Source: Nitrososphaerota archaeon
GTDB lineage: Archaea; Thermoproteota; Nitrososphaeria; Nitrososphaerales; Nitrosopumilaceae
Reading direction: 5' to 3'
Assembly: GCA_005877205.1 (NCBI GenBank)
Contig: VBPL01000040.1
Span: 1 to 64,000, forward strand
Length of the DNA stretch: 64,000 nucleotides
Shown in pieces: positions 111 through 4,651 of this stretch; the first letter of the stretch is position 1, and every line of letters begins with the position of its first letter. A program made the translations under genes and the position numbers. A model generated the notes under the pieces. It was given only the letters and a program-made list of their open reading frames with translations. It had not been told where the DNA came from and searched no databases.

Positions 111-527
111 TCACTTATTCAGCCCTTTTTTTATTATTTCTAACGCGTTTATTGCTCTTTCAGGTTTTGGCAGTTGAATCATAAATACGTTGGAGCTTCC
201 GTATTCAGAGTGCGGCGAAGATAGAGCCAGCATCGAAGTATCAGCAAGCGCTTCAAAGAATCCCAGTGACTCGTTTGCATATAATAAAAACTGCTCTTCC
301 ATACCACCTTGTGAAAAAGCCATAGTTACCCTGACAAATACGTTCCCCAGTCCATCTTGAAGTATGTTAAGATTAGTTTCAACTGAGACGGGTTTGCCTG
401 CCACAGATTTCATGATATCATCAAATTCTTCCAGTATGATACACGGGACCTTTTTTCCGTTAAAATCAAAGACGGTAAAATCTTTGTGTCGTTGAGTCAA
501 CAGTCTGTCTAGTTCATTGTTTTCCAT
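111..527 (-). CDS. Hypothetical protein, third gene of the ATPase operon
   Basis: Unknown protein of 138 aa. It has no membrane segment, signal peptide or metal motif; it appears to be a single compact domain of alternating beta strands and a C-terminal helix ending in a lysine-rich tail. The ATG is preceded by GGTGA nine bases upstream, a good Shine-Dalgarno match. It lies 49 bp downstream of the AAA+ ATPase gene on the same strand, so it is probably the last gene of that operon and a partner of the ATPase. No family is recognised; the link to the ATPase rests on position only. Confidence 0.75.
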   Translation of the reverse strand: MENNELDRLLTQRHKDFTVFDFNGKKVPCIILEEFDDIMKSVAGKPVSVETNLNILQDGLGNVFVRVTMAFSQGGMEEQFLLYANESLGFFEALADTSMLALSSPHSEYGSSNVFMIQLPKPERAINALEIIKKGLNK

Positions 528-576
528 GATATCAGGTCACCAGTTCTCTTTTTAAAAGGATGCAAAATTTAGATTA

Positions 577-2181
577 TCAGATTATACTTAGAGTTCTTGC
601 AAGTATCTCTGCTCTCTCGTTATCCTCTTCAGCAATTTTTTTTCCAGTATACTTGCTGTTAAAGTAGAATAGATCAATCATTTTGGATTTGTCTATATTT
701 ACTACTGTTGCGTTATACGGACTAGGAATCTTCTTATTTGTTAGTATTACCAACTTGTCAACTACAACAGATTTTGAGATATTAGAAATCTCAACCAAGT
801 TCGAAGAATCATTTTTATTTGCTACTACGGCTATGCCTACCTTTGATCCAAATGAGTCTTGGTAGACTGCATCAAGTGGAAGACTTTGTTTTTCTAATTT
901 GCATATATTGCCCATTTCCTGAGCAAAATTAGTCAGGTTGTCGACAGCTTTTTTGAGTTCTCTTTCTGTAGAATCATCATCACAGCTTCTTCTGATAGAA
1001 ATAAAGTCGGATATTGGAATATCCATTATGCTTCCTCTAACTCTTAGACCAGGATAGGTTTGTCTAATTGCATCGTCTATCGCATTTTCATCAATCTTTT
1101 CCAGCTCTAATTCTTCAGACTTTTCCATGGTATGATATAGTATGTTAATAAGAGATCGAACGTTTCGAAATTCTGGGAATTCGTCGCAAAGAACCTGAAT
1201 CTTGTTATATAGTTCTTCTTGTTCCTTGGAACCAAATTTGTCATTTTTATCATTGTGTTTGATATATTCTACTGCTATCTCTGATAATTCCTCCTTTGAA
1301 TTCGAACCCACAAGATCTATCTTGTAATTTGCCTTCTCCAATCTATCAAAGACAGACGGATTTGAATTCTGTACCTCTAGATAACCTGAAGGCGTTGATA
1401 CCAGCAACAGTACCGACGCAGGAATATGTGCGTTAATTATTCCCTTTACAAATTCAATTGACTCTTTGTTCCCATCAAACTCGTCCATTTCAAAGAGAAC
1501 AATCTTTCCCAGGAATCTTTGAGTTAATTTTGATATAGATGACATCATTCCGATTAGCTCTTCTAAATTACCAATACTTTCAAACGAATTGGTTACAACA
1601 CTTTTAATGAAAGTCGCTTCAAAATGATTGAATCGTTGAATTAGAAATACCTTAAGGTTTTCAACAGAAACCTGCTCTTTTCCCCTAACAATATCAGCGA
1701 CTTTATCTTTTATGGTCAAGCCAGTGATTTTATTTACGAAACTATAATCAAGAGCTTTTTTTGCAGAGCCATCTCCGTTTTCAGCTCTCTCTCCCAGGTA
1801 TTCTAGGAATTTGCTTCGTAGTTGTACAAAAAACTCATTCTCCAAGCCTTTGAGTATTGCGTTGTAGATACTTGACATGGTTTTGGGTGATATGGTTGAT
1901 AGATCAACAAAGGAGCACGCTATATTGTGCCTACCTTGAAGATTCTTAATATGCAAGGCCAGGTGGGTCTTGCCAGATCCAACATCTTGAATTACGGTAA
2001 TTACTCGAAAATCCCCCGTTGCGGCTTCTCTTCCGTGTACTTTACAGTTGAGCTCTTTAATACACTCTAGTATGGCAGATTTTGCCTCCTTGTGTCTCTT
2101 TCCTCCAAGAATTTTTGCGTCTTTTTCTGTAGGTGTAGGACTGCTAGGGTAGGGATTGGTTTCTAATCCATAAGCGTACAT
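577..2181 (-). CDS. ORC/Cdc6-like AAA+ P-loop ATPase of unknown function
   Basis: A 534-aa P-loop ATPase. Walker A is QDVGSGKT at residues 65-72, where the usual first glycine is Gln. Walker B is VLFEMDEFD near 228-236, a sensor-1-like VSTPSGY lies near 261-267, and an arginine-finger-like FDRLEKA near 278-284, the order found in the ORC/Cdc6/STAND branch of AAA+ proteins. The N-terminus carries NPYPSSPTPT (9-18) and GGKRH (26-30), reminiscent of substrate-presenting ATPases. The last ~150 residues are a separate alpha/beta domain. Its start overlaps the upstream gene stop as TAATG with GTGAGG before it, so the two are translationally coupled. It is probably not the replication initiator because no canonical C-terminal Cdc6 winged helix is visible. 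A role in DNA binding, chromosome organisation or defence is possible but unproven. Confidence 0.8.
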   Translation of the reverse strand: MYAYGLETNPYPSSPTPTEKDAKILGGKRHKEAKSAILECIKELNCKVHGREAATGDFRVITVIQDVGSGKTHLALHIKNLQGRHNIACSFVDLSTISPKTMSSIYNAILKGLENEFFVQLRSKFLEYLGERAENGDGSAKKALDYSFVNKITGLTIKDKVADIVRGKEQVSVENLKVFLIQRFNHFEATFIKSVVTNSFESIGNLEELIGMMSSISKLTQRFLGKIVLFEMDEFDGNKESIEFVKGIINAHIPASVLLLVSTPSGYLEVQNSNPSVFDRLEKANYKIDLVGSNSKEELSEIAVEYIKHNDKNDKFGSKEQEELYNKIQVLCDEFPEFRNVRSLINILYHTMEKSEELELEKIDENAIDDAIRQTYPGLRVRGSIMDIPISDFISIRRSCDDDSTERELKKAVDNLTNFAQEMGNICKLEKQSLPLDAVYQDSFGSKVGIAVVANKNDSSNLVEISNISKSVVVDKLVILTNKKIPSPYNATVVNIDKSKMIDLFYFNSKYTGKKIAEEDNERAEILARTLSII

Positions 2182-2747
2182 TAGAGATTCCTCACATAAC
2201 CATGAACAAGCCCACGAACAATAATTCCTTCGTGACCGCCTGACGAGACTTCGTATCTTTCTCTTTTTTGCTCAATAAGATCAGCAGCTAACGTGTAAAA
2301 TTTTTCCTTTGATAGATTTTTAGCTTCACAAATTTTTTCCCTAACCTTGGAAAATGGTGTCCATCCAATAGAAGTAGATGATTCATTTAGGTACTTGTTA
2401 AAGACAATTTCAAAATCATCGTTTGCCAAGGCAGAATCTTGATTCGAGATGCTTTCCACTTCCTCTAGCAAATTCTGTGTATGCCCCTTGGGTTCAGATT
2501 GGCTTGTGCCAGATACCATGTCAAGCACCAGCTTGAATTTCGGATCATTTTGAGTTAGATAATGAATATAATTTTCTTTAGACCAGATACAATAAGTGAC
2601 TCCTTTTTTTTCAATGAATATTTGTTCTTTTTTCTTGAGTCTCTCAAGCATATTGTCGCATTCTTTGCCGTATATTTTCTTCAGGGCAACCTTCTTGATA
2701 CCATCTACTCCTGCAGACTCTATTTTCTGCAAGATATTCACGGTCAT
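2181..2747 (-). CDS. Double winged-helix protein, first gene of the ATPase operon
   Basis: A 188-aa protein with two apparent winged-helix domains. The N-terminal one (about 1-62) has helices followed by a hairpin ending in YCIWSKENY. The C-terminal one (about 110-188) has a helix-turn-helix at FYTLAADLIEQKRE followed by a wing with SGGHEGIIVRG. An acidic linker rich in Glu, Ser and Asn separates them. The ATG lies about 26 bp after a TATA-like element at 2766-2778, so the mRNA is probably leaderless. The TAATG overlap with the ATPase gene implies a complex or at least coordinated production. It could be the DNA-binding subunit that delivers the ATPase to DNA; a kleisin- or ScpB-like role cannot be excluded. 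Confidence 0.75.
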   Translation of the reverse strand: MTVNILQKIESAGVDGIKKVALKKIYGKECDNMLERLKKKEQIFIEKKGVTYCIWSKENYIHYLTQNDPKFKLVLDMVSGTSQSEPKGHTQNLLEEVESISNQDSALANDDFEIVFNKYLNESSTSIGWTPFSKVREKICEAKNLSKEKFYTLAADLIEQKRERYEVSSGGHEGIIVRGLVHGYVRNL

Positions 2748-2765
2748 GGAGAGATCTGTCGCGAA

Positions 2766-2778
2766 ATTTTATTTAATA
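2766..2778 (-). promoter_or_regulatory. TATA box of the ATPase operon
   Basis: On the minus strand this reads TATTAAATAAAAT and is centred about 26 bp before the ATG at 2747, the spacing expected for a leaderless archaeal transcript. Confidence 0.55.
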
Positions 2779-3139
2779 CCCAACGTAGCCTAGACCGACA
2801 ATTTAGTGAAAAATTATTGCTTCATATCAAGTCTCTCACTGAGACGACGGTTTGCCAGATGAGATTACTTGTTCTAGTCATAAGCAAGTCAAATTATAAG
2901 TTATGATGAGATAAAACCAATAGCAGAATGATGATTGGGTATTGCTGATTATGATGAATTATACCTGGGGTATCTGACTGCTCTCTCAAGATTTAGATAA
3001 TGTGTCAAGAAACTGAGCTCCTGCAGTATTACGATACTGAATAAACTCTGTCTCATGAAATCTTGAAAACAAATGAACATTCATGCCGGTAATACTGAAC
3101 TTACCACGATGTTAATAGTACGGTATGGTACGGTAATTC
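2779..3139. other. Intergenic region with no convincing gene
   Basis: About 360 bp between the divergent ATPase operon and the C2H2 mini-gene. It is AT-rich and broken by stops in all frames. One minus-strand ORF of 32 codons (3084 to 2986, starting MNVHLFSRFHETEF) has a protein-like composition but no clear promoter or ribosome site, and could be a gene remnant. The near repeat TACGGTATGGTACGGTAA lies at about 3119-3136, just before the mini-gene. Confidence 0.4.
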
Positions 3140-3247
3140 ATGTTAAGCTGCGAATTTTGTCCAAAACAGTTCATCGAGACTGCAAACGGCTTGGTAGAAA
3201 AGATGTTTCACGAAGTTCTCCATGACCCAGAGACAGTTAATAACTAA
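3140..3247 (+). CDS. 35-residue C2H2-type zinc finger mini-protein
   Basis: A short ORF from ATG 3140 to TAA 3247. It encodes MLSCEFCPKQF followed by a helix with HEVLH. The ligands C4, C7, H24 and H28 fit a C-x2-C-x16-H-x3-H pattern, slightly longer than the classical C2H2 spacing. The acidic tail ends DPETVNN. A run of seven T (3258-3264) follows, as expected for an archaeal terminator, which supports an independent transcript. Single-finger proteins of this size are known in archaea, but this one has no assigned function. It may bind DNA, RNA or a protein partner. Confidence 0.6.
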   Translation: MLSCEFCPKQFIETANGLVEKMFHEVLHDPETVNN

Positions 3248-3257
3248 CTCTGGGCTA

Positions 3258-3264
3258 TTTTTTT
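3258..3264 (+). terminator. Oligo-T terminator after the C2H2 mini-gene
   Basis: TTTTTTT lies 10 bp after the mini-gene stop, directly following TCTGGGCTA. Oligo-T tracts on the coding strand terminate archaeal RNA polymerase. Confidence 0.5.
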
Positions 3265-3290
3265 AACATACACAAAAATCAAAAACGAAC

Positions 3291-3301
3291 TTTTTTATCG
3301 G
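3291..3301 (+). promoter_or_regulatory. TATA box of the coiled-coil gene
   Basis: TTTTTTATCGG is centred about 27 bp before the GTG start at 3323, which suggests a leaderless GTG transcript. Confidence 0.5.
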
Positions 3302-3322
3302 CTAGCTTTGTTCTAATTAAAA

Positions 3323-4651
3323 GTGGCTAAATCAAAACGAGTAGAATCTAAACAGGATAGAGACTCGACTTCCGATGTTCTCAAAAAAATGAGTTCAATT
3401 TCTGATGCCACCAAGATTCTGGCCTCAGAAGTCAAAGCAATGTCAAAGATTTTTGCAGAGAATCAGAAGATACTGATCTCACTGAAGAGTATGGTAGATG
3501 CAGTCAACTCGTCACTGGAACAAATTCAAAAGAATTCAAGACAGATAAACATTATTGAAGAAGACACCCAGCGGCTATTCTCTGGAATGAGCCAAGTGAA
3601 AACACATTCCACTCTGATTGATAAAATTAATGATCAAGTAAGTAAGCTTCATGACCAGGTTGGCAAGGTTCGTCAAAAACAAGAATCTATTCCTGATACC
3701 AATAAAATCATGCAAAGTGTAGCTGACAACTTGGATTCTATTAGAAATAACTCTAAGATGATAATGCATGTTTCAGAAAAGACTGAAAAGATACGTGAAG
3801 AACTCAAGAACGTAGCAAGCAACGCTGAGTCGCTTTCAAACCTAAGCCAAGAGATTGGAGAATTAAAGCAAAGTACAAAGGAAATTTCGGCCAAAGCCGA
3901 AAAGATGGTGCATTTGGAAGAGAGTATTTCCAACCTAAAAGGCGATATTGGCAACATATCAACAAAGACTGAACCCCTGCTTAACTTGGACTCTCAGATA
4001 AGAAACGTCGGAACAGAGATTTATTCTTTAATCAAGAAAACTGACTCACTTTCTGCTCTAAGTGATGACATCAGAAATGTTAACGCTGAATTTGCTAATT
4101 TCAGGGAAAACGTACTTGGCAGGACCAAAGAGTTGGATGAGAAAATGGCAGATTTTTCAGAGTTACTAAATAAAAACTCATCATCTATATCGGAATTCAA
4201 CAAAAAGACTCACGAAATCTCTCAACAACTGCAAGAGATCCGAGGAATAACTCACAAGACATCCCAAAGCACCTCGCGTGAAGTAATGGGATTATTACGC
4301 TTGTCCGAATTTCAGTCCAATATAAGAATGCGTTCTGAATCAAAGTACGGAACCCTAGAAGACATACAAAAGATGGTATCTCAAGCAGTTGACATGATAA
4401 ACTTGTTTGATCGTCTTTCAATTGAGACAGAAACTAAAATGCCATTGCCACTTGAGGTTAAACAATGGAGCATATCAAAAATATTAGACTGTGCTGACAG
4501 GTGGGAAATTAGATTCACAGATGTCTTCAGGCTTTTAACAAGTGAACTTGGCTCTGATCTTGTTAAAGAATCAATTAGGATAGAACAGGTTCGTGATCTC
4601 TATGGAATACGGGCAGTAGACGAAGTAAGACACGAACTGAATATATCTTAA
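3323..4651 (+). CDS. Long coiled-coil protein, methyl-accepting-like repeats without membrane segments
   Basis: A 442-aa protein starting with GTG. Residues ~20-320 form an almost continuous coiled coil rich in Ser, Asn, Lys and Glu, with recurring segments of the type SxLSxxIxNLxxEI roughly every 35-40 residues (NLSQEIGEL, NLDSQIRNVG, ALSDDIRNVN). No Walker motif, membrane segment or chemotaxis signalling tip is present. The last ~110 residues look globular and helical (from about RLSEFQSNIRMR to the end). It resembles rod-like structural or chromosome-tethering proteins and the cytoplasmic coiled coils of methyl-accepting proteins, but no family can be assigned. It is convergent with the glycosyltransferase gene, sharing 4 bp at the stops. 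Confidence 0.75.
   Translation: MAKSKRVESKQDRDSTSDVLKKMSSISDATKILASEVKAMSKIFAENQKILISLKSMVDAVNSSLEQIQKNSRQINIIEEDTQRLFSGMSQVKTHSTLIDKINDQVSKLHDQVGKVRQKQESIPDTNKIMQSVADNLDSIRNNSKMIMHVSEKTEKIREELKNVASNAESLSNLSQEIGELKQSTKEISAKAEKMVHLEESISNLKGDIGNISTKTEPLLNLDSQIRNVGTEIYSLIKKTDSLSALSDDIRNVNAEFANFRENVLGRTKELDEKMADFSELLNKNSSSISEFNKKTHEISQQLQEIRGITHKTSQSTSREVMGLLRLSEFQSNIRMRSESKYGTLEDIQKMVSQAVDMINLFDRLSIETETKMPLPLEVKQWSISKILDCADRWEIRFTDVFRLLTSELGSDLVKESIRIEQVRDLYGIRAVDEVRHELNIS

Follow-up and report, generated by a model that had tools for sequence, protein, structure and literature searches.

Gene organization at the locus

The window, i.e., the whole 64,000-nucleotide stretch of DNA that was analysed, forms one end of a 70.9-kb contig (G000:C57) from the Nitrosotalea genus group, whose named records include Candidatus Nitrosotalea devanaterra and Ca. 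N. bavarica. Three co-oriented ORFs on its minus strand encode proteins of 188, 534, and 138 amino acids (genes 1, 2, and 3, respectively), exactly as the original prediction had described them. The genes and features considered here are as follows:

2764–2778, minus strand: TATA-like promoter element TATTAAATAAAATTT, which starts 31 nt upstream of the gene 1 ATG (box 31–22 nt upstream)
2181–2747, minus strand: gene 1, 188-aa protein with two predicted winged helices (WH) (ORF, AlphaFold2 model, alignment and domain conservation, profile match to Sulfolobaceae partner proteins)
Within the gene 1 protein: WH1, residues ~2–56; helical linker, ~57–123; WH2, ~129–180, with the invariant motif Y..xxGGxEGxxxxGxxxG
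2177–2181, minus strand: TAATG stop/start overlap of genes 1 and 2; the junction reads CTCTAATGTACG, with the TAA stop overlapping the ATG
577–2181, minus strand: gene 2, 534-aa predicted ORC/Cdc6-like AAA+ ATPase (ORF, AlphaFold2 model with pLDDT 84, Foldseek, alignments)
1965–1988, minus strand: Walker A motif QDVGSGKT, residues 65–72 (alignment)
1465–1497, minus strand: Walker B region VLFEMDEFDGN, residues 228–238, with D233 and E234 invariant (alignment)
577–967, minus strand: C-terminal α/β domain of the ATPase, residues ~405–534 (secondary structure, motif alignment)
111–527, minus strand: gene 3, 138-aa protein, a neighbour rather than an obligate part (ORF, distribution)

The coupling of genes 1 and 2 through TAATG had been recognized previously, and it extends beyond the window: in most relatives, TAATG, TGATG, or TAGTG occupies the same place. 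Upstream of gene 1, both the sequence of the TATA-like element and its distance to the ATG are kept throughout the genus while the surrounding sequence drifts, and this spacing fits the leaderless transcript of gene 1 that had been predicted. The possibility that the ORFs occur by chance was rejected: in nearly all genus genomes with complete copies, all three are conserved over their full length (55–80% identity; 65–76% for the ATPase), and thus they are real genes. None of the three proteins matches a curated family above cutoff in Pfam, NCBIfam, PADLOC, or PHROGs, which agrees with the earlier expectation that no characterised family would be strongly matched. In particular, PADLOC returned no match at E up to 1 for any of the three proteins, nor did NCBIfam for the ATPase, and PDB sequence searches yielded only HTH- or P-loop-level noise.

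The double winged-helix protein

Winged helices at both ends of the gene 1 protein, first read from the sequence, are supported by its AlphaFold2 model (mean pLDDT 75), in which helix-helix-strand-strand units at residues 2–56 and 129–178 flank a long helix (residues 87–123). The nearest folds are the winged helices of MarR-type regulators, TFIIIC/Pol III, and ScpB, none of them with an E-value below 0.001. In alignments of the window protein with its Sulfolobaceae counterparts, the identity of WH2 is about 26–32%, and that of WH1 is just 7–27%; moreover, Y165, G170, G171, E173, G174, G179, and G183 of WH2 are invariant in 28 sequences. This pattern of domain conservation suggests that WH2 is the constant part, probably facing the ATPase, and that WH1 is the variable part, probably facing DNA or another target. 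Winged helices also mediate protein contacts, and DNA binding by this protein is hence not assured.

The linker between the two domains can be a short helix or, at the other extreme, the ~200-residue coiled coil of Nitrosocaldus; such variation in length is as expected for a bridging protein. The Nitrosocaldus WH proteins (405–419 aa; L023:8323-9540, L024:10138-11397) carry this coiled coil as an insertion between both winged helices, and the insertion gives an Apolipoprotein-like match that is under the cutoff.

Two winged helices are likewise present in WhiP. This archaeal winged-helix protein, which is set beside gene 1 by description only, is an initiator of Sulfolobus oriC3 (PMC12141716).

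The ORC-like ATPase

The Walker A motif of the gene 2 protein begins with Gln, as the original prediction pointed out; alignment indicates that Gln is typical of the ammonia-oxidiser branch and that remoter relatives have the canonical Gly. The sensor-1 region and an arginine-finger-like segment (DRLEKA), both of which had also been noticed, proved to be strongly conserved. In the AlphaFold2 model (pLDDT 84), the AAA+ core and lid are followed by a separate α/β domain (residues 405–534). When this model was searched with Foldseek, the best PDB folds were Drosophila ORC (E 5.6e-5), Sulfolobus Orc1/Cdc6 (9e-5), and human ORC; as modelled, the fold is thus ORC/Cdc6-like, in line with the earlier reading. 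TnsC (0.55) and MuB (0.56) have the highest target-normalised TM-scores of those noted, ORC/Cdc6 ranks above TnsC, and the TM-scores over the whole length, at about 0.3 of the query, are modest and reflect the AAA+ core only.

These searches bear on one alternative, namely, that the pair is a signal-dependent transcription switch in which a STAND-like ATPase would control a winged-helix DNA-binding regulator. Weak matches of Sulfolobaceae members to nSTAND3, NACHT, and NB-ARC (and also to AAA_22) would agree with such a switch, as would the resemblance of the WH model to MarR regulators and to TFIIIC and Pol III winged helices. However, the fold search puts ORC/Cdc6 first, the conserved arginine-finger-like residue suggests an ATPase that forms a ring or filament, no sensor domain is present, and the neighbouring genes vary between families, so that no target gene is evident. 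The switch is therefore considered improbable.

The C-terminal domain of the ATPase follows the order helix-strand-strand-helix-strand-strand-helix in the model and is not a winged helix. Several Sulfolobaceae paralogues contain G(K/R)R...D(I/V)x(F/Y)...GD(I/V)K(I/L) in this domain, and an equivalent D...LDVK is found in family f43 and in one f22 genome; we take these patterns to be the PD-(D/E)XK nuclease motif on the basis of the established motif, not of a structural comparison of the domain alone. The motif-like sequence is intact (GDIKI, LDVK) in relatives such as L162, L173, L168, and L174. The motif is lost in the ammonia oxidisers, where the window ATPase reads LDAVY...VGIAVVAN and lacks the catalytic D...(D/E)xK; in the f22 ATPases of 616 aa; and in the most frequent Sulfolobaceae type, which has GLVK or GDVV. 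Judged by these residues, the window ATPase ends in a degenerate domain of putative nuclease fold, with the catalytic D/E-x-K lost. Such loss has occurred in the window branch and in at least two others. Since the motif has been lost repeatedly and the ATPase retained, cutting is probably not the core function; in the window lineage, the domain probably binds DNA or a partner without cutting.

Pairing and breadth of the two genes

The pair is recognized by a WH gene whose product has the GG.EG.G.G wing motif at its C-terminal end and which directly precedes the ATPase gene; this is the arrangement found in the window. Within the genus, the two genes are adjacent in every genome that has both on one contig. 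Among 80 named loci from GTDB species genomes, the WH gene lies immediately upstream of the ATPase gene in 69 and not in eight, while three loci are too near a contig end; the arrangement thus holds for 69 of the 77 testable loci. Six of the eight exceptions belong to a single Nitrosopumilus clade and are the true ones; of the other two, one has an ATPase gene with a broken frame downstream of a WH gene, and the other is truncated at a contig end. In the Nitrosopumilus clade (L078-L081, L083, L086, L171), a solo ATPase occupies an unrelated locus with no WH gene nearby, and the WH profile finds no WH gene in the whole genome of G351, which belongs to this clade. The WH partner is therefore not strictly obligatory for the ATPase. 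Moreover, the pair is absent from two near-complete Nitrosotalea genomes and from most Nitrosopumilus, and it is thus dispensable.

Outside the ammonia oxidisers, the WH profile finds proteins that adjoin a 440–460-aa AAA+ ATPase in the Sulfolobaceae (family f35, an identity confirmed by the presence of Sso7d). The ATPase is encoded in 29 of the 31 Sulfolobaceae genomes and the WH gene in the same 29, the same two genomes being devoid of both; the WH gene adjoins all 42 strong ATPase loci (42/42), and many of the genomes contain two paralogous pairs. With hhalign, the window and Sulfolobaceae ATPase profiles aligned over 381 columns that extend into the C-terminal domain (E 1.3e-16), and the WH profiles aligned along the length of the protein (E 1.8e-15). 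Reciprocal profile searches link both groups: the Sulfolobaceae WH profile recovers the window WH protein at E 2.5e-8, and this is its sole match in the window genome at a limit of 1e-6. Remoter versions within the phylum include a 616-aa ATPase accompanied by a WH protein of 164–169 aa (f22), a pair in f43, and pairs in f26 and f38 with a short ATPase (250–280 aa) from which the C-terminal domain is absent. By these profile comparisons, the pair is homologous from the ammonia oxidisers to the Sulfolobaceae and other Thermoproteota.

In two genomes of one Sulfolobaceae genus, a 910–916-aa protein without a Pfam match adjoins the pair (L156:4912-7644, L157:616-3366).

The third gene

The original prediction regarded the locus as an undescribed operon of three genes. 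The tight linkage of the WH and ATPase genes and the absence of a curated family bear out part of this view; gene 3, however, is separable and occurs without the pair. Its product has no match in Pfam, NCBIfam, PHROGs, or PDB sequence searches. It is found in 68 of 398 Thermoproteota genomes, most of which do not carry the pair, including Nitrosopumilus; it is near-universal in the Nitrosopumilaceae, many of them without the pair, and in Nitrososphaera. Of the three genes, G022 and G034 retain only gene 3 at this locus; the pair is cleanly absent and has left no pseudogene relics.

It is very unlikely that the 138-aa protein is a required subunit of a three-gene complex. Its position would be compatible with such a complex in most of the genus, where gene 3 lies 40–55 bp downstream of the pair, and in Nitrososphaera, where it is close by. 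In Nitrosotenuis, gene 3 and the pair are ~1.3 kb apart. Against the complex stand both the predominance of gene 3 in genomes without the pair and the situation in Nitrosocaldus, whose whole genomes carry the pair but no detectable gene 3 and have a gene for a HAD-like hydrolase there. Co-location across genomes, proposed beforehand as a check, thus gave a divided answer: gene 3 is often apart or missing, and genes 1 and 2 stay together. The unit consists of two genes, WH and ATPase, to which gene 3 is merely adjacent.

The HAD-like hydrolase gene directly follows the ATPase gene in place of gene 3 at L023:11165-11857, L024:7767-8519, and L027:8775-9506, and its start overlaps the ATPase stop in L023 and L024 (Nitrosocaldus). 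At G016:C14:60538-62589, the ATPase gene and gene 3 are split into several frames and the WH gene is whole, which reflects either an assembly error or decay.

Inheritance and comparison with known systems

The ATPase tree matches taxonomy, with Nitrosotalea, Nitrosotenuis together with the solo Nitrosopumilus clade, Nitrosocaldus, and Nitrososphaeraceae as its groups. The pair is chromosomal and vertically inherited in Nitrosotalea, Nitrosotenuis, Nitrososphaera, and Nitrosocaldus; its neighbours in ammonia oxidisers are housekeeping genes and vary between families. Searches of plasmids, phages, and IMG/VR viral contigs revealed no copies of the pair. A recent mobile element was rejected because the ATPase tree is vertical.

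TnsC/TniB and MuB, which are AAA+ proteins of the initiator clade that assemble on DNA with partners, are among the structural matches to the window ATPase, and TnsC works with target-recognition partners. Both points would suit a transposition regulator, either domesticated or relict, of the TnsC/TniB kind paired with a TniQ-like protein. In contrast to these systems, the window pair has no transposon context: transposase genes within a mobile element are lacking (vertical tree, housekeeping synteny, no mobile-element copies), no transposase or inverted repeats were seen tied to the locus, the pair is old, and ORC/Cdc6 ranked above TnsC. An origin of this kind is highly improbable.

Orc1/Cdc6 and eukaryotic ORC share with the pair the AAA+ fold, for which they are the best structural matches, and DNA-binding partners of the winged-helix type. 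An Orc1/Cdc6 protein contains both ATPase and winged helix in a single chain, whereas in the window pair the winged helices are on a separate protein and the ATPase has a C-terminus of predicted nuclease fold. Foldseek assigns an ORC-type AAA+ core fold to the window ATPase, though with modest TM-scores; the protein has no same-chain winged helix C-terminal to the AAA+ lid and does not reach the curated cutoff of TIGR02928. The match above this cutoff in the window genome is another gene (G000:C37:18633-19721). A bona fide Orc1/Cdc6 is encoded separately in all 15 genomes tested, and thus the pair does not replace the initiator. An initiator linked to an origin was considered and set aside as not apparent, as the pair is not beside orc1: in the complete genomes that were compared, the two lie hundreds of kilobases apart (0.33–0.44 Mb in G035, G006, G037, and G113, the distances being those to orc1 and not to mapped origins).

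An archaeal combination of AAA+, HTH, and PD-(D/E)XK-type domains is known from Pfam ATPase_2 (PF01637) with DUF234. For arCOG03166, a single-chain archaeal AAA+-HTH-RecB nuclease, PMC4158269 gives the annotation 'likely involved in defense (or some plasmid gene)'. The window pair is also archaeal and combines the same types of domain; unlike these proteins, it is composed of two genes and has two winged helices and a degenerate nuclease. Neither PF01637 (no match at E up to 1) nor PF03008 was found in the window ATPase when both were sought in one chain, and PF01637 has a match, below threshold, only in a Sulfolobaceae relative. BrxC/BrxD of BREX and mad8 of MADS resemble the ATPase in the P-loop region, through weak matches of distant relatives; however, these relatives are far below the curated cutoffs, and no BREX or MADS genes are neighbours.

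Such similarities raise the possibility of a defence system, in which the ATPase would sense invading DNA, the WH protein would serve as an adaptor, and the C-terminal domain would be the effector nuclease, as has been suggested for arCOG03166. The nuclease-type motif is indeed intact in several relatives, pairs have paralogues and have been lost in lineages, the similar one-chain arCOG03166 is listed as likely defence (PMC4158269), and relatives show weak AAA-level similarity to MADS mad8 and BrxD. These features have to be weighed against vertical inheritance at a syntenic housekeeping location, the lack of PADLOC matches for the window proteins, the absence of the pair from the plasmids, phages, and viral contigs searched, and the fact that at least three branches have kept the ATPase but not the catalytic motif. 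Defence is accordingly judged unlikely, and between defence and chromosome maintenance, the evidence leans to chromosome maintenance.

A proposed role for the pair

The first reading of the locus envisaged a DNA-acting machine for defence, chromosome positioning, or transposon-related control. That the gene pair acts on DNA is very probable; a transposon-related role is unlikely, given vertical inheritance and the absence of copies from the plasmids, phages, and IMG/VR contigs searched. We put at about even the prospect that genes 1 and 2 are the ammonia-oxidiser version of an ancient archaeal module of two genes, in which an ORC-like AAA+ ATPase is loaded or aimed by its WH partner and, in the window lineage, acts on the chromosome without cutting it.

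Starting from the observed gene pair, its conservation, the predicted folds, and the degenerate motif, we infer complex formation, DNA binding, an ATPase cycle, and a cellular role from fold, pairing, and inheritance. The variable WH1 would recognize DNA or a DNA-bound target, and the constant WH2 would dock on the ATPase. On binding ATP, the ATPase would then form a ring or filament on DNA, like Orc1/Cdc6, TnsC, and MuB, and ATP hydrolysis, set by the DRLEKA arginine, would release it from DNA. The nuclease-like domain, devoid of the catalytic acid and lysine, would bind DNA or a partner instead of cutting. The process served would most likely be non-essential upkeep of the chromosome, i.e., positioning, segregation, or support of repair or replication forks. 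More tentatively, the pair might constitute a phylum-wide split ORC for chromosome maintenance, with one subunit for targeting and another as the motor, and with an ancestral nuclease that has become a non-cutting DNA-binding domain more than once; we hold this broader proposal to be possible but somewhat doubtful.

In the open-access subset of the literature, which leaves out most subscription journals, no account of the pair was found for either ammonia oxidisers or Sulfolobus; this is not proof that none exists. Familiar domains are combined here in a split two-gene arrangement that, together with its breadth, appears to be undescribed in the searchable, mostly open-access literature. Apart from replication, few components of archaeal chromosome maintenance are known. 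The pair may show how ORC initiators with fused AAA+ and winged-helix domains are related to split, nuclease-linked systems. Since the pair reaches from soil ammonia oxidisers to the genetically tractable Sulfolobus, it is directly testable there.

Neighbouring genes

A divergently transcribed gene for a 442-aa coiled-coil protein (3323–4651 of the window) is a conserved neighbour of the pair in Nitrosotenuis as well as in the genus. It was set aside as a candidate partner, as G022 and G034 keep the coiled-coil gene without the pair. The interval between it and gene 1 (2748–3322) contains no MsrB gene in the window; in several relatives, an MsrB gene lies between the pair and the divergent coiled-coil gene.
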